Below are positions 1,054-13,758 of a stretch of 26,660 bases of DNA, one piece after another. The notes beneath the pieces were generated by a model. That model had not been told where the DNA came from and did no database searches. It saw only the letters and a list, made by a program, of their open reading frames with translations. The stretch is from Chloroflexota bacterium (GTDB lineage Bacteria; Chloroflexota; Dehalococcoidia; UBA3495), in assembly GCA_022576105.1 (NCBI GenBank), contig JACZRM010000002.1, positions 1-26,660 on the forward strand, read 5' to 3'. How positions within the stretch are numbered: position 1 is the stretch's first letter; each line of letters opens with the position of its first letter. A program made the translations under genes and the position numbers.

Positions 1054-2790
1054 CTAAGCTGCAACACTGGCCTCCATCAACGGTGAAGTGAAGCTAAAAG
1101 TACTGCCCACCTCAAACTCACTTTCCACCCAAATTTGCCCTCCCTGGGCTTCGACGATCAGTCTGGTAATGTAAAGTCCCAGTCCCGCGCCAGATTCCTT
1201 TCGAGCCAGGGAATTATCGGCGCGGAAAAATTTGCTGAACACCCGGGGCAGGTCGGTTTCGGAGATTCCGGTCCCGGTGTCTGAAACGTCAATCTGCATG
1301 AACCCTCCGCTTTCCTTAGCGGTGACCCTAATTGTTGCTTCTGACGATGAATACTTGTAGGCGTTGCTAAGCAGATTGGTAATAACCTGGTGGAATCTGA
1401 GCCGATCAACCCACAATGGTTTCAAGTCTTGGCCCAGGGTTAGCAATACCGCCAGCCGCTTTTCCGGGAAGCGGCTGGCGGTGGACCGGATTGCGTGTTC
1501 CATTTCAGTGGACAGATCTAGCTGGGTCGGTCTCAAGTCAAATTGGCCAGACTCAATTCGGGAAATATCCAGTAGGTCGTCGATTAAAGTCTTTAATATT
1601 TTGGAGTCTTCCACTACATACTCCAAATATTTGACCTGTCGATCAGTAAGTGGACCCACCTTTTCCCGATGCAAGAGCAACCTTTCCATGCAGCCCATGA
1701 TGCCGGCCAGGGGCGTCTTGAGCTCATGGGTGACCGTGCCGAGAATCTGGGATTTGGCGATGGATACCCGCTCCAGCTCGGCCAAAGCGAGCTTCCTTTG
1801 GTCGATATCCCACTTTAAGGCCAAGGCGGAATGTACTCGCGCTTCCAATTCGACCCGATGTACCGGTTTAGTTATATAGTCAACAGCCCCGGCGGCGAAG
1901 GCCGCTTCCAAATATTCTGAATCGTGACTGGTGACCATGATGATAGCCACGTCGTTAGTGCCTGGATCGGCTTTTATGCGACGGCACGCTTCAACTCCAT
2001 CCATTACCGGCATGTCGATGTCCATCAGAATCAGGTCGTAGGCGTTGGTCTTGGCCATCTCCAGGGCCTGGAGGCCATTCTCCGCCACGGCCACGGAGTG
2101 GCCCAGGGACTCCAAAAAGCAGACCAGTATCTCTTGGATCACATCATTGTCGTCTACCACCAGGAGGGATCCAGCCTCGGACACCAACTGCTCGCCGCCA
2201 GCCACCGTGCTTGGAACCGGGCTGACCGCCTGCTCCAGGCCGGCCCTTTCCTTTGGGCTGCTTTTCTCCCAGGCAGCGGGGTCTGCCGTTCCAGTGGCGG
2301 AGGCTCCGTTTCCCGTTTGGCGGAGGGAAGCCGGGTTGCTGGCGACTTCCAGTACGCGGTGGGCGGCGTCGCCGATCTTCTGGAGATCTGGGAGTTGCTC
2401 CGTTTGACCTGAGTCTCGGGCCTCCTTTTGCAGCAATTCGCTCCACCCGAGTATGTAGGCGACGTTAGGGCGCAGAGCGCTGTGGAGTTGTTCCAGCGGC
2501 AGGACTTGGCCCTTCCTTGGGTCCACGGTGAGGTTTTCGTTGACCGAGGCCATCAGCTCCCGACCAGCGGCTTGAATGCGCTGCAGGTCGGGCAGGTAAT
2601 CACCCAATCCCCCATCTTCGGCCTCCTCGCGGAGCAGAGCGCAATAGCCGATGATGTGGTTGATGGGGGTTTTCAGGTCATGGGCTAAGTTGGCCATGTT
2701 GTCCTGCCAGGTCGGTTCGGCCGGGTCTGGCCTGGCTGATTGCATCCCATCCTGGCGGGCGGCAGCGGTCTTAGATCTTCGGCTGGTCAT
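1054..2790 (-). CDS. Hybrid sensor histidine kinase with internal receiver domain
   Basis: A 578-residue soluble kinase with no membrane segment. In order: a HisKA-like module (about 30-88) with HDLKTP at H37; a second, degenerate copy (about 97-150) with HSALRP at H103 and similar flanking text (LLQKEA, LPDLQKI); a low-complexity linker; a receiver domain (about 207-325) with D213/D214, acceptor D257, T287 and K308; then a canonical HisKA domain with H355 in THELKTP and a HATPase_c domain carrying the N box (NLLSNAYKY), DTGTG and GAGLGLYI. It should autophosphorylate at H355 and may exchange phosphate with its own receiver or with the receiver-ATPase encoded next. The start ATG at 2790 has GGAGG eight bases upstream and overlaps the stop of the preceding gene as ATGA, which suggests translational coupling. 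The stimulus is unknown; the cytosolic N-terminal modules are the likely input. Confidence 0.93.
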   Translation of the reverse strand: MTSRRSKTAAARQDGMQSARPDPAEPTWQDNMANLAHDLKTPINHIIGYCALLREEAEDGGLGDYLPDLQRIQAAGRELMASVNENLTVDPRKGQVLPLEQLHSALRPNVAYILGWSELLQKEARDSGQTEQLPDLQKIGDAAHRVLEVASNPASLRQTGNGASATGTADPAAWEKSSPKERAGLEQAVSPVPSTVAGGEQLVSEAGSLLVVDDNDVIQEILVCFLESLGHSVAVAENGLQALEMAKTNAYDLILMDIDMPVMDGVEACRRIKADPGTNDVAIIMVTSHDSEYLEAAFAAGAVDYITKPVHRVELEARVHSALALKWDIDQRKLALAELERVSIAKSQILGTVTHELKTPLAGIMGCMERLLLHREKVGPLTDRQVKYLEYVVEDSKILKTLIDDLLDISRIESGQFDLRPTQLDLSTEMEHAIRSTASRFPEKRLAVLLTLGQDLKPLWVDRLRFHQVITNLLSNAYKYSSSEATIRVTAKESGGFMQIDVSDTGTGISETDLPRVFSKFFRADNSLARKESGAGLGLYITRLIVEAQGGQIWVESEFEVGSTFSFTSPLMEASVAA

Positions 2791-3344
2791 GATTGACCTC
2801 CGTTGCCCAGGAGGAACTCAATCTTCCCCAGCAGCCGAGAGAACCCAATGGGCTTGCTGTCGTAGTCGTCACAGCCCGCCTCCAGGGCTTTGCACCGGTC
2901 GTCGGACATGGCGTGGGCGGTGACGGCCAGGATGGGGATGGAGCCGGTCTCCGGAGCGGCTTTGAGCCGTCGGGCGGCTTCCCAGCCGGTGAGGACCGGC
3001 AAGCCCAGGTCCATGAGCACCAGGTCGGGGGTTTCGGCCAGTAGGTGGTATTGGGCCTCGAATCGCTCAAAGTCGGCTTCATCCTTGAGCACCCGCTGGC
3101 GGTATATATAATCCCCGGTTGGCAGGTACTGTAAGACTCCCATTCCGCTGCCGATCAGGTTAATTTCCATCTCGTAGGCGGCGGCGCTGGTGGCCTCGGT
3201 TATCTCCCGCACCTTTTCATCCACAATCCGGGCCTGAAAGAGGGATACCAGGGCCGCGATGACGAACCGGCTCAACAATAGTCCAACGCCCAAGCCTACC
3301 TTGATTCCAACCCGATTCAAGCGTCCTATTTTGCTAAATAACAT
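2787..3344 (-). CDS. Truncated sensor/receiver chimera (in-frame deletion derivative)
   Basis: About 185 residues. The N-terminus has one hydrophobic segment (roughly residues 15-37) followed by an extracytoplasmic sensor-like helix (VREITEATSAAAYEMEINLI... QYHLLAET) of the kind that opens membrane histidine kinases. At AET/PDLVLMDL the sequence switches to the second half of a receiver domain: acceptor-like D in LVLMDLGLP, then AVTAHA, and DSKPI. The first receiver strand with its acidic pair is missing, as are any HAMP, HisKA and HATPase domains. This is what an in-frame deletion within a long membrane hybrid kinase would leave. It may be a real remnant, a regulatory stub or an assembly chimera. 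ATG at 3344 was chosen; TTG at 3359 is the in-frame alternative, and neither has a strong ribosome binding site. The stop overlaps the next gene by ATGA. Confidence 0.6.
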   Translation of the reverse strand: MLFSKIGRLNRVGIKVGLGVGLLLSRFVIAALVSLFQARIVDEKVREITEATSAAAYEMEINLIGSGMGVLQYLPTGDYIYRQRVLKDEADFERFEAQYHLLAETPDLVLMDLGLPVLTGWEAARRLKAAPETGSIPILAVTAHAMSDDRCKALEAGCDDYDSKPIGFSRLLGKIEFLLGNGGQS

Positions 3345-3360
3345 GTTGCCAGCACCCAAT

Positions 3361-9848: not shown

Positions 9849-9932
9849 GGCCAGATCTCAGCTGAGAGAAACCTTCCGGGCAGATTAAGAGCCTGTGGTC
9901 AAGGATATGCGGGAATAGCTTAATTCCCGGCA

Positions 9933-10020
9933 CGTCATTCCGGCCTGCGCCGGAATCCAGCGTCATCTACCACTCAACCAGGGTGCGGCTTCTGGGCTCT
10001 GGCTTTCGCCGGAGCGACGA
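9933..10020. repeat. Inverted pair of REP-like palindromes
   Basis: A left unit at 9933-9960 (CGTCATTCCGG... CGGAATCCAG) is itself palindromic. A right unit at 9992-10020 (CTGGGCTCTGG... GGAGCGACGA) is a diverged inverted copy; 31 bases lie between them. The rest of the 333-base gap at 9849-10181 holds only the terminator at 10092-10123. Confidence 0.75.
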
Positions 10021-10091: not shown

Positions 10092-10123
10092 AAGAGGACC
10101 CCGATATTGATCGGGGTCCTCTT
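10092..10123. terminator. Bidirectional intrinsic terminator
   Basis: A 14-bp perfect stem (AAGAGGACCCCGAT at 10092-10105 with its complement at 10110-10123) and a four-base loop. On the minus strand it is followed by TTTTGG, so it terminates the three-gene operon at 10182-13613. On the plus strand it can end transcripts from the HtrA gene. Confidence 0.85.
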
Positions 10124-10181: not shown

Positions 10182-11471
10182 CTAGTTTTCCCAGCCGCCG
10201 TCGCCCTCTTCAGAGTCCTGGTCATTCAATTCTTCCAGGTCCAGGTCCTCGGAGTAGCTGGGAGACAATGGTGTTACTTGAATGTTCGGACTGTACTCCG
10301 GGTACAGGCGCACCAGGTCCCAGGCGTTGATCCACCGTTTTATGTGCTGCCGGATCCTCCAGGTATTGTTGGTTTCGTAATCCAGCGGAGGCTCCCACCG
10401 GTAGGCATTGGAGTAGACTGATCGAGTCTTGTCGTGCACTTCTGCCAGGTCGGTGGATTCGTAGAGCACCATATCCTCATGAGGCACCTGCCTAATTTTT
10501 GCCATCCCCAGTTCCGCCTGTCTGGCCAGAATCAGGTTCTCCGGCTTTCCGGTGGCGGGCAGCCTCTCCGATATTTTTTCTTCGTCTCGTTTCTCGTCCA
10601 TTACCTCGCTTTGATAGGCGGAGGTAAGGGCGAAAACCGAGGCCAGGCCGGGAATACGGTGATTGTCCAGCAGGCCCAAAAGCCGGGCCATCTCTGAATA
10701 GGACCTGACCCGCTGCAGCAAAGAATACCGGCCCATGAGCTCAACCTCATCGACCAGGATTACCCACCCACTGTAACCGGCGGCCGAGACCAGGCGGGAC
10801 ATGAACTGGTACCGTTCCAGCGTCAGGTCCTTTACCGAAATTTTGTCGAATTTGTAGGTAGCGACTTCTCCCAACTCCCGCAGCCAGCTGCGCAATTCGG
10901 ATTCCGGGACGCGGGCGCCCCCCCAGAATTGGAGAATTCGGTCCGAGACCTCGGGATAGCGGCCTCCGTTGCCCCGCTCAAAGACGAACACCGAAGCGGC
11001 GAAACGGGCGTTTAGAGTGCTTTTTGGGCTGAATACCCACCGGTAGAACTGCTCATATTCCTGGCCGTCAAAGTCCAGCTTCTCGGCCAGCACGCTCAAG
11101 ATCGTGCCAGCCCGGTCGGGCACGCGGGCCGATTGAATGGCAGAGCTGTACACTTTGCTGGTGTCGTACAGGGGAGTCTCTTTGCTGATGACCACCTTAC
11201 TACAGACGAAATTGTTTTCCAGGGCAACGTGCTGCAAATATTCCAGTAAATGGGATTTGCCGGCGCCAAAATCGCCGGCGACCAGAATGCCATCCACCGC
11301 GTTCGCTCCGGTTGCGCCGCTGGTCACAGTGCTCAGCATGTCCCGGAACCGGGCTTCAATGTTGGGCTGGGCGGAGCCAATGCCCAGGGCCTGTACTGCG
11401 TCCCGATTGGGTACGCCGGCCCGTAGCGCTTCAATGGCCCGCCAGCTGGAAACCTGCGTTAGAGTGCTCAT
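10182..11471 (-). CDS. BrxD-like (DUF2791) P-loop ATPase
   Basis: A 429-residue protein. The N-terminus SSWRAIEALRAGVPNRDAV and QPNIEARFRDML, then Walker A GDFGAGKS (66-73), LLEYLQHVAL, SKVVISKETPLYD (91-103) and Walker B WVILVDEVE (236-244, D241/E242), match the DUF2791 family, whose best known member is BrxD of type 2 BREX phage defence. The length also fits BrxD. Sensor-like ASVFALTSAYQSEV (278-290) is present and the C-terminus is acidic (DLDLEELNDQDSEEGD). The ATPase should be active. The start overlaps the stop of the upstream gene by ATGA, and a strong terminator follows. No methylase, PglZ, BrxC or helicase gene is in the window, so it works in another setting than BREX, or with partners elsewhere. 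The family assignment is from memory of its motifs. Confidence 0.8.
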   Translation of the reverse strand: MSTLTQVSSWRAIEALRAGVPNRDAVQALGIGSAQPNIEARFRDMLSTVTSGATGANAVDGILVAGDFGAGKSHLLEYLQHVALENNFVCSKVVISKETPLYDTSKVYSSAIQSARVPDRAGTILSVLAEKLDFDGQEYEQFYRWVFSPKSTLNARFAASVFVFERGNGGRYPEVSDRILQFWGGARVPESELRSWLRELGEVATYKFDKISVKDLTLERYQFMSRLVSAAGYSGWVILVDEVELMGRYSLLQRVRSYSEMARLLGLLDNHRIPGLASVFALTSAYQSEVMDEKRDEEKISERLPATGKPENLILARQAELGMAKIRQVPHEDMVLYESTDLAEVHDKTRSVYSNAYRWEPPLDYETNNTWRIRQHIKRWINAWDLVRLYPEYSPNIQVTPLSPSYSEDLDLEELNDQDSEEGDGGWEN

Positions 11472-12592
11472 GAATAACTCCTAAACCCCTGGGAAATAGC
11501 CGGTGCAATTGCCGGTGAAACGGCGGGTGAAACGGCCGGGATTGTCGAAAGGGAGACCGCCGGCTGCTCTGGTCCCGAGGACTGTGCCCCGGAGGTCCCT
11601 TCATCGGAGGTCCCTTCATCGGAGGTCCCTTCATCGGAGGTCCCGGTCCCGGAGAACCGTATCAGTGAAGACAACGGGTTCATCTTACGTTGGTCCCTCA
11701 CTTCGTCCCAAATGCGCAGGTACAAAGCGTCGTACTTCCTTACCCCTCGCTGCTCATTACTCAAAAACTCCGGCGGCGCAAAAACGACGATCAGGCAGTT
11801 CTGCAGTTCATCGGTACTGTCGATAAACTGCCTCAGGACTTCATAGCCGTCCACCACCGCAGACGTACTGTAGAACAGGGAGGAATCGCCTTCTGGGGGA
11901 CGCTTATCGCGCAAGAAGCTGGAAATGTCGATGGCCAGCACCAGCCCGGATTGTCCCGACACATTCAGCCAGTGCGACAGATAGGCCAGCATGTGGCGGG
12001 CGTTGTGCCGTCCAATCTTCTGAAAGATAGCCGCGGATTTAAGTGCCGATATAAGCTGCAACTCACCCCTCAGCCACTCTCGGACTGCTTCAACAATGCC
12101 AACTCCCAGGTCCTGCGGGTCCAGTTGGGCCTGGCAAAGTTTGAGCATGGCCTGCCGGAATTCTTGATTCATGGCGTAGTCGTGCGAGAGCCGCTCGCGC
12201 AGGCGGGTGTTGATCACAGCCCTCATTTCGCCCAGGTCCAGGCCGTTCAGGTAGGCAATTTGGGACAGGCTAAACTCTTCCCGATCGGCAGGCACCAGGT
12301 AGGAGCTTTCCAGCAGAGTACAGCACAGGAAAGAGTGGGCCAGTTGGTCCCAATCTACCTGCCGGGCGACCGCGCTGAATAGTTTGTCCACCATGTGGAC
12401 CTTGGTGGTGGCGGCGTCCACCTGGGCAAAGGCGTAACCCTCTTCTTGGGACATGCTCTTCAGCTCATCCCACAGCTCTTGGTGCTCAGCCGAGTCTCCG
12501 GGCACCACAAATTTCACTGCGCCTCCACCGTTTTTGATGAAGTTCTGCAAATATTCGCTGCGCAGTACTGATAGCCAGTCTTGAATCGCCAT
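11468..12592 (-). CDS. Pseudo-ATPase paralogue of the BrxD-like protein
   Basis: A 374-residue protein. The start region aligns by eye with the neighbouring BrxD-like ATPase: GGGAVKFVVPGDSAEHQELW (about 22-41) stands where Walker A should be but lacks GxGK(S/T), and KSMSQEEGYAFAQVDAATTK (45-64) parallels the ENNFVCSKVVISKE segment. Around 216-222 GLVLAID resembles a Walker B strand without the Asp-Glu pair, and CLIVVFAPPEFLSNEQRG (266-283) parallels the sensor segment. I infer a catalytically dead partner that forms a complex with the active ATPase. The C-terminal 60 residues are low complexity: GTSDE in tandem, then Pro/Ala/Ser repeats. ATG at 12592 follows AGGAGTCAAAAAGCG. The stop overlaps the next gene by ATGA. 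The homology is suggestive, not proven. Confidence 0.65.
   Translation of the reverse strand: MAIQDWLSVLRSEYLQNFIKNGGGAVKFVVPGDSAEHQELWDELKSMSQEEGYAFAQVDAATTKVHMVDKLFSAVARQVDWDQLAHSFLCCTLLESSYLVPADREEFSLSQIAYLNGLDLGEMRAVINTRLRERLSHDYAMNQEFRQAMLKLCQAQLDPQDLGVGIVEAVREWLRGELQLISALKSAAIFQKIGRHNARHMLAYLSHWLNVSGQSGLVLAIDISSFLRDKRPPEGDSSLFYSTSAVVDGYEVLRQFIDSTDELQNCLIVVFAPPEFLSNEQRGVRKYDALYLRIWDEVRDQRKMNPLSSLIRFSGTGTSDEGTSDEGTSDEGTSGAQSSGPEQPAVSLSTIPAVSPAVSPAIAPAISQGFRSYS
11591..11645 (-). repeat. 15-nt tandem array in coding sequence (GTSDE repeats)
   Basis: The 15-nt unit GGAGGTCCCTTCATC (plus strand) starts at 11591, 11606, 11621 and, partially, 11636. Copies are virtually identical and encode the GTSDE repeats near the C-terminus of the pseudo-ATPase. 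A multiple-of-three period keeps the frame whatever the copy number. Confidence 0.9.
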
Positions 12593-12806
12593 CGCTTTTT
12601 GACTCCTAAAATTTGTCCCGCTGCCACCTTCGTTGTCAATCCCAAAACCGGGATCGGGGCCCGCCCAGGGCCTGGTAATTTCTACCTAGTAATCCCATCG
12701 TGGGAACCAGCCCGCTCGGCCCTTAAGGGAATGTCACCCATCCGATAAATAGGGCACTTTCAAGTCCAACACACTGATGGATAAGGTGGACAATTCGTAC
12801 GCTAGT
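12593..12806 (-). other. 214-base gap inside the three-gene cluster
   Basis: There is no reading frame of note. It contains the small palindrome CCCTTAAGGG (around 12720) and no recognisable terminator. The gap is long for an operon, so the second and third genes may have an additional promoter here; I could not pick out a convincing one. Confidence 0.4.
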
Positions 12807-13613
12807 TTAGGTTTCATGCCTTTCGTTTTGAGTGAACCTGATACCGTAATAGCGGCGCAGTTCTCCGGACTCGTCTACCACTGAAAGTGTCTTGCCGCGC
12901 ACACCCCTACTGATGGGGAAGCTTACCCTGGCGCCCGCCTTGGTGGTTTGAATGTCGCCCCGATGCAGCAGGTAAATGTCCCGGGCAAACTCCTGTCTTG
13001 AATATTCTTTGGCCTGGCCGGGCAGCAGGGTTAGCAGGCTGTAGATGTCCACCAGCGGCACCACCGGAGAGGCGTCGATGGTGTCGCTGCCGCGTTCGGA
13101 GGCAATCTTCGAGTATCCCTCAAACAGAGCGGAGAGAAATGCCTCTGGCCGGAAGCGAGGCGGCTTGTCTTGCAGGTTTTTGAGCAGGTTGACCAGCACC
13201 GTGGGGCGGAGACGGCGCTCCCTGCGGCGGTCCACGGCCACTGCCCGCTCCGACGGGATTACGCGCAACAAGGACGGGAAGCAGAACAGGCGGTCATCGC
13301 GTTCAAACATCGTTACTCCCATCCTTTCTGCCGTGTGCATCACTTCTCTGGCGTAGCCGCCGGTGGAGAGATAATTTTGGGCGTTGAAAGACCAGCCATC
13401 CTTGGCGTTGGCCAGCTGTTGGCGCAACGTTGCCAGCGCAGATTCGGCGGCTTCCATTGATGAGCGTATCTCGCGCAAATCGCCCAATTGAGCTGCCGTA
13501 CGGAACCGGCGCAGCGGCGCCATCAAGGCTCCCGCGGCACGCAGGGTGGCGGCCGCATCGGTCTCAGTGGCGGCCAGGGCCTGCTCAAGAGTCTGTTGTT
13601 CTAAACTCACCAT
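12807..13613 (-). CDS. First protein of the BrxD-like triad, coiled-coil N-terminus, unknown family
   Basis: A 268-residue, probably cytosolic protein. Residues 1-72 are helical and coiled-coil-like, rich in Ala, Leu, Glu and Gln. A compact domain follows (about 73-190): GWSFNAQNYLSTGGYAREVM, ERDDRLFCFPSLLRVIPSER, then a strongly basic stretch VDRRRERRLRPTVLVNLLKN and RFRPEAFLSALFEGY. A third part (about 190-262) ends with beta-rich RVSFPISRGVRGKTLSVVDE. The basic segment suggests nucleic acid or nucleotide contact, but that is an inference. I do not recognise a family. On the minus strand it is followed by the pseudo-ATPase and the BrxD-like ATPase, so it is probably an adaptor or effector of that system. 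ATG at 13613 gives MVSLEQQTLEQ; ATATATGGTG upstream has no strong ribosome binding site, although CCTGGTG lies nearby. Confidence 0.7.
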   Translation of the reverse strand: MVSLEQQTLEQALAATETDAAATLRAAGALMAPLRRFRTAAQLGDLREIRSSMEAAESALATLRQQLANAKDGWSFNAQNYLSTGGYAREVMHTAERMGVTMFERDDRLFCFPSLLRVIPSERAVAVDRRRERRLRPTVLVNLLKNLQDKPPRFRPEAFLSALFEGYSKIASERGSDTIDASPVVPLVDIYSLLTLLPGQAKEYSRQEFARDIYLLHRGDIQTTKAGARVSFPISRGVRGKTLSVVDESGELRRYYGIRFTQNERHET

Positions 13614-13736
13614 ATATCACCAGGGGGCGCTTCAAGAAGAAGCGAGTGGCCAGGTATATTGCCCGCGCCGCAATACACATATTCGGGGGAATTTGATCCA
13701 GCGTAGCATTGTTAGTCCTTTTCACACAGGGTGTCA

Positions 13737-13758
13737 TTACCCTAGGTTATTCGGGTAA
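13737..13758. promoter_or_regulatory. Inverted repeat TTACCC/GGGTAA in divergent promoter region
   Basis: TTACCC at 13737-13742 and GGGTAA at 13753-13758 form an interrupted palindrome. A related half (TTACCCCAATTTGGGAA) lies near 13804-13820. Both sit between the minus-strand triad and the plus-strand lactonase genes, where an operator could act on either. No regulator is suggested by the sequence. Confidence 0.35.

Follow-up and report, generated by a model that had tools for sequence, protein, structure and literature searches.

What is the function of three adjacent genes that include a BrxD-like ATPase but stand apart from the rest of a bacteriophage exclusion (BREX) system? This question is raised by a 26,660-nucleotide (nt) stretch of a Chloroflexota genome (contig JACZRM010000002.1, positions 1 to 26,660; the whole stretch is called the window here), whose minus strand carries, in this order, g1 (12807..13613, 268 amino acids), g2 (11468..12592, 374 amino acids) and g3 (10182..11471, 429 amino acids). 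The coordinates of the open reading frames (ORFs) confirm the first-pass annotation, made from the sequence letters, in which three consecutive minus-strand genes of these sizes and an ATGA overlap between the last two had been described. We consider it on balance probable that the trio makes up the DNA-loading half of a BrxD-type system, an ORC/Cdc6-type loader of an antiviral Snf2 helicase-nuclease, which is present here in a form without the helicase.

Both g2 and g3 matched the BrxC/BrxD family PF10923, g3 with 78 bits (expectation value, E, 8.9e-22) and g2 with 46.6 bits (E 3e-12), and thus passed the Pfam cut-off of 22.2 bits. With the NCBIfam model BREX_BrxD the scores were 67.6 bits for g3 and 37.6 bits (E 1.3e-9) for g2, and PADLOC matched g3 to BrxD (E 7e-19) and to SngB (E 1.8e-12). 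PF10923 (DUF2791) was the best match of g3, and the protein, a BrxD-like ATPase of the active type, has both Walker A (GDFGAGKS, 11253..11276, minus strand) and Walker B (VILVDEVE, 10740..10763, minus strand). The P-loop was present in 45 of 48 g3 ORFs (44 GxFGxGKS, one AxFGxGKS; the remaining three are incomplete pieces) and in none of 48 g2 ORFs. Among the matches listed, the GxFGxGKS form was found in 113 of 120 g3 homologues and GK[ST] in all 120, and the P-loop pattern in 0 of 120 g2 homologues; in the latter the Walker B aspartate is often kept as D-I-S (79/120 by a simple pattern, which missed 39) and the glutamate is lost. The assignments of the 429-residue protein to the DUF2791/BrxD ATPases and of the 374-residue protein to the dead ATPases, both proposed in the first-pass annotation, were therefore borne out, g2 being a BrxC/BrxD-family pseudo-ATPase. 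In comparison with the related locus L033, the proportion of nonsynonymous differences (pN) was 0.19 for g2 (synonymous, pS, 0.75), 0.22 for g3 and 0.28 for g1; constraint is strongest on g2, and the dead protein therefore matters. The C-terminal tail of the window's g2 (11480-11650) is of low complexity (GTSDE-type repeats, a Pro/Ala/Ser stretch) and is absent from 15 aligned relatives.

Searches with g1 found 746 homologues. A genome scan yielded 50 loci, and with those added from class and order scans 71 loci were counted (L001-L050, L086, L087, L090-L096, L109-L118, L151 and the window). Left uncounted were L088/L089 (contigs of L018/L035), L097 (a short g1-like match accompanied by neither g2 nor g3), L150 (a lone g3), L152/L153 (part or repeat of G007/G001), the short stretches L051-L085, L098-L108 and L131-L149, and the controls L119-L130. 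Because g1 similarity was the criterion for retrieving every locus but two (L151, retrieved with g3, and the window itself), the presence of g1 is given by construction, and the independent observations are g2, g3 and the helicase described below. Genes were called by a greedy longest-ORF script; some starts are wrong, and g1 was missed in L044 and L116-L118, where searches do find it. In all 62 loci in which g2 and g3 were called apart they are neighbours on the same strand and in the same order, which shows that the arrangement is not due to chance; in L037 and L039 the two are fused. In 61 of 63 loci g1 lies next to g2, the exceptions being L033, with an extra gene, and L094, with an overlap of 128 between the called ORFs. 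The three genes thus co-occur in other genomes, and the kept gene order supports the earlier view that an active/inactive pair of BrxD-family ATPases and an adaptor are conserved as a unit. The extra gene of L033 (3082-4335, 417 amino acids), inserted between g1 and g2, ends in approximately 115 residues that copy the winged-helix-like domain of g1.

The unit is patchily distributed. In the class of G001, the genome that contains L033 and the closest relative of the window to have been sequenced, g1 was found in 18 of 294 genomes, one of which (G090) is without g2 and g3; in its order the figure was 13 of 250, the two sets overlapping and the completeness of the genomes not being stated. At E 1e-60, g3 was found in 18 of 393 genomes. 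The g3 tree was built from 60 rows (the 61 g3 sequences of 300-800 amino acids minus the duplicate L089), which carry ten phylum-level labels, 21 of the 60 being unlabelled. One part of the tree mixes phyla on short branches (Myxococcota with Bacillota, Nitrospirota with Thermodesulfobacteriota; support 82-92, unstarred), and the starred mixed pair L030/L032 may merely reflect how two 'delta' bins were labelled. The pattern is compatible with transfer but is no proof of it. A second, lone BrxD-like ATPase of G001 (L150:5019-6698, 559 amino acids) has a C-terminal extension of approximately 130 amino acids and lies near a phage portal gene (PF04860) and a terminase-looking ORF without a Pfam match; neither g1 nor g2 was called beside it on the 7.7-kb contig of L150.

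The description as a 'three-gene system' proved correct as far as the trio is concerned, but in the relatives the trio is usually the front of a four- to five-gene unit ending in a Swi2/Snf2 helicase, and the window represents the helicase-less form. The helicase was found within 2.5 kb downstream of g3 in 41 of the 52 loci for which that much sequence was available, and in most helicase-bearing relatives it is preceded by, or fused to, a protein of approximately 185 amino acids (H1; fused in L006 and several others). H1 had no match in Pfam, PADLOC or PDB. The best models for the helicase (H2) were ZorD1 (E 9.9e-73) and DpdE (E 2.7e-62); among the long helicases, the Snf2 Walker A and DEAQ motifs were present in 44 of 45 and an intact Mrr-type nuclease motif in about a third (16/45). 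Of the 38 trio genomes, 25 gave an H1 match, in 23 of them directly downstream of the trio and in two (G007, G046) on a separate contig, the contig of the trio ending just past g3 in both. The remaining 11 loci (L022, L033, L042, L043, L049, L094, L095, L115, L117, L118 and the window) have no helicase within this distance; L049 has one at 2.8 kb, and L022 retains a short H1. Other arrangements were also seen: in L117 (2986-6967) the helicase of the unit is split by a DDE transposase gene, in L118 (11820-14757) AAA and McrBC-family genes lie directly 3' of the trio, and in L042 (13018-14655) and other Actinomycetota loci (L045-L047) g3 is followed by another superfamily 2 helicase, that of L042 being closest to PbeA.

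No helicase was found among the scanned ORFs of the window (Pfam), and neither H1 nor the helicase had a match in G001, a 2.3-Mb bin of unknown completeness. In the g3 tree the window pairs with L033 (starred, 99), and the pair is nested within a starred clade among the helicase-bearing L003, L086, L087 and L096 (L040, which is cut off, is also there), and because of this nesting a derived loss of H1 and the helicase, or a split of the unit, is the most likely explanation of the window. If the effector was lost, the trio might be a decaying leftover of a defence system, as would be consistent with the missing helicase, beside the trio and in G001 alike, and with the widened gap between g1 and g2 (12593..12806, minus strand; 214 nt, mostly -4 to 15 in the relatives). 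However, all three ORFs are intact and carry their motifs, and between the window and L033 the nonsynonymous rate (dN) is 0.22-0.35 against a synonymous rate (dS) of at least 1.6 (saturated), values which indicate that the trio is under purifying selection. By the tree the split of the two loci postdates the loss, and the trio would therefore have been kept intact since then. The end branch of the window (0.22) is not longer than those of its relatives, although the stem of the pair measures 0.41. Taking these observations together, decay appears very unlikely.

How might the trio work? According to a 2026 BREX survey (PMC12839542), BrxD is an ORC/Cdc6 AAA+ ATPase; its role is called uncharacterised there, and loading or activation of the helicase BrxHI is proposed for it. 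The putative adaptor g1 had no match in Pfam, NCBIfam or PADLOC, the one Pfam row (E 0.71) being far below the cut-off. The model of the whole protein had a predicted local distance difference test score (pLDDT) of 82, and that of residues 77-268 a pLDDT of 90.6 and a predicted template modelling score (pTM) of 0.84. In the whole-protein model, helices H9-43 and H46-69 form an N-terminal hairpin (residues 8-75, 13389..13592, minus strand), whose structural matches were helical arrangements with middling Z, and the C-terminal domain (residues 152-265, 12819..13160, minus strand) looks winged-helix-like. In the mechanism that we propose, g3 would be the active ORC/Cdc6-type ATPase and g2 its catalytically dead relative, a regulatory subunit beside it (the two also occur as a natural fusion); g1, by way of its helical hairpin and winged-helix-like domain, would tether the complex to DNA or to a partner. 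Where the unit is complete, the complex may load or activate the Swi2/Snf2 translocase, which often has an Mrr nuclease; H1 would mediate between them, and the loaded translocase would attack invading DNA. In the lineage of the window, the locus would have lost H1 and the helicase, and selection would have retained the trio, to act with a partner encoded elsewhere or to block DNA itself. It is quite possible, if somewhat doubtful, that the trio has been freed from the helicase-nuclease and works alone as a two-subunit ORC/Cdc6-like switch on DNA.

The homologues of g2 bring in a further possible use of a helicase-less trio, redirection to a regulatory or signalling role at the membrane. Five of the 120 listed (P0146, P0150, P0165, P0166, P0195) start, by inspection, with hydrophobic segments resembling membrane helices, and one (P0147) starts with a receiver-like piece. 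Pfam did not report a receiver in P0147, however, and the g2 of the window is without such an extension, so that we regard this use as highly improbable here.

For the complete unit, a defence role is favoured because the helicase is closest to ZorD1 and DpdE, the unit is patchy and an Mrr domain is present; the loader and helicase-nuclease together probably have an antiviral role. Several observations weigh against the proposal of an antiviral loader. The window neighbours are ordinary (a trypsin/PDZ, DegP-like, protease, SMP-30 proteins, cupin, LiaF-like, CoA-binding, DUF1800 and DUF1501 proteins), as also in the relatives the named neighbours of the trio are mostly metabolic and the defence signal is weak beside the controls. 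Searches of viral contigs with g1, of plasmids with g1 and g2 and of phages with g3 gave no relative. The absence of the helicase covers the 26,660 nt of the window, and a copy may exist elsewhere in the genome. Finally, a direct profile-profile comparison of g2 with g3 gave nothing (probability 0.2), for which reason their kinship rests on the PF10923 and BrxD family models. In the neighbour scan, 100 ORFs sampled from 112 (12 loci) matched 24 PADLOC families at E 1e-20, against 14 for 100 control ORFs drawn from 152 in these genomes; the defence-type matches near the trio were mad3, Cas5/6, DpdF, a type I restriction endonuclease and McrC. The metabolic neighbours and the negative plasmid, phage and viral searches would suit a chromosome-maintenance or repair/transcription module, in which the ATPase pair and the winged-helix protein handle the cell's own DNA and the Snf2 protein is a remodelling motor with no phage role; the strong purifying selection and the presence of condensin among the structural-match rows of g1 point the same way. 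Such a module is harder to reconcile with the occurrence of g1 in just 18/294 and 13/250 relatives, with the partly mixed phylum labels of the g3 tree, with the helicase of L117 interrupted by a transposase gene and with the Mrr nuclease motif in 16 of 45 helicases, and we think it rather unlikely.

The flanks of the trio add some detail. A 14-pair hairpin (10092..10123, no strand) lies 3' of g3 between convergent genes and separates the trio from the DegP-like gene. It was predicted to be stable (-29 and -28.3 kcal/mol, z -7.0 and -4.4), which upholds the hairpin of the bidirectional terminator noted earlier; because its T-tract is poor, its role as a terminator is graded only as likely, and terminator-like sites in the region numbered 6 against 4.9 expected by chance. 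The promoter-pattern scan found no sigma-70-like site in the 214-nt gap between g1 and g2; the single such site (13708-13737, minus strand; chance expectation 1.7) is upstream of g1. A second palindrome, seen by eye at 9930-9965 past the 3' end of the DegP-like gene (CATTCCGGCCTGCGCCGGAATCC), is perhaps a dispersed repeat. Further neighbours in the window are NHL, FUR, RecF/SMC-type, glyoxalase, receiver-KaiC and hybrid kinase proteins, and a 190-amino acid ORF (2787-3359) resembles a sensor N-terminus joined to a receiver-domain end, as if by internal deletion.

With a compact BrxD-like ATPase and its dead relative, with or without a helicase, the idea of helicase loading by BrxD would become testable with few parts. 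If the trio does work alone as a switch on DNA, the natural helicase-bearing and helicase-less versions would separate the job of the loader from that of the helicase. The unit is also a widespread candidate system for antiviral screening, g1 and H1 being unmatched in PADLOC 2.0.0.

Among the known systems, type 2 BREX is similar in its BrxD-BrxHI dyad, since in the complete relatives a BrxD-family ATPase likewise stands beside a superfamily 2 helicase. In contrast, the scores of g3 (67.6 bits) and g2 (37.6 bits) compare with a BREX_BrxD equivalog cut-off of 350, the trio adds the dead relative g2 and g1, and the helicase is absent from the window; moreover, the helicase of the trio relatives is of Snf2 type, whereas the survey (PMC12839542) describes a Ski2-like BrxHI that has an Lhr-type end. 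As the first-pass annotation had supposed, no full BREX accompanies the trio: neither PglZ nor an adenine methylase (PglX/BrxX; Pfam, window only) was found among the scanned window ORFs. A PglZ match was obtained in 9 of the 38 trio genomes, none beside the trio: in G320 and G446 it is on the same contig but more than 1 Mb distant, in G003, G010, G013, G015, G114 and G481 it is on a different contig (G013 and G015 judged by ORF lengths), and in G016 its contig was not matched to that of the trio, the two being at least 19 kb apart if on the same contig. Shango (SngA TerB-like, SngB ATPase, SngC helicase) resembles the unit as a small system of a BrxD-family ATPase and a helicase, SngB matching g3, but the trio has two ATPases, one of them dead, and a winged-helix-like adaptor, and the helicase of the relatives is Snf2 with Mrr. 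There were no TerB-named Pfam or SngA-named PADLOC matches for g1-g3 at E up to 1 (both libraries should include such a model), nor for H1 at E 0.01, and SngC matched the L042 helicase only, weakly (E 1.2e-6) and behind PbeA. The DUF499-centred BREX-related (BR/Hma) systems have, according to the same survey (PMC12839542), an ORC/Cdc6-type ATPase, a Swi2/Snf2 helicase and a fused nuclease, but the ATPase of the trio is of the short BrxD type and paired, and the scanned window ORFs include no methylase; neither g3 nor g2 had a DUF499 match with E up to 1 (Pfam), g3 having a weak DUF6079 match (E 0.016). Identity with the BrxD of type 2 BREX, with Shango or with a DUF499 system was thus rejected in each case on the tests made (score, PglZ, TerB/SngA, SngC, DUF499). 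Zorya type I ZorD and Dpd DpdE are the closest models for the helicase of the relatives, which shares an Mrr-like nuclease with them, but the likeness is confined to this helicase, which the window is without; neither ZorA nor ZorB was named among the scanned ORFs of the window, to which this check was confined. A limited literature search found no description of the unit. On the sequence comparisons made here, we call it a variant among the modules that combine a BrxD-type ATPase with a helicase.

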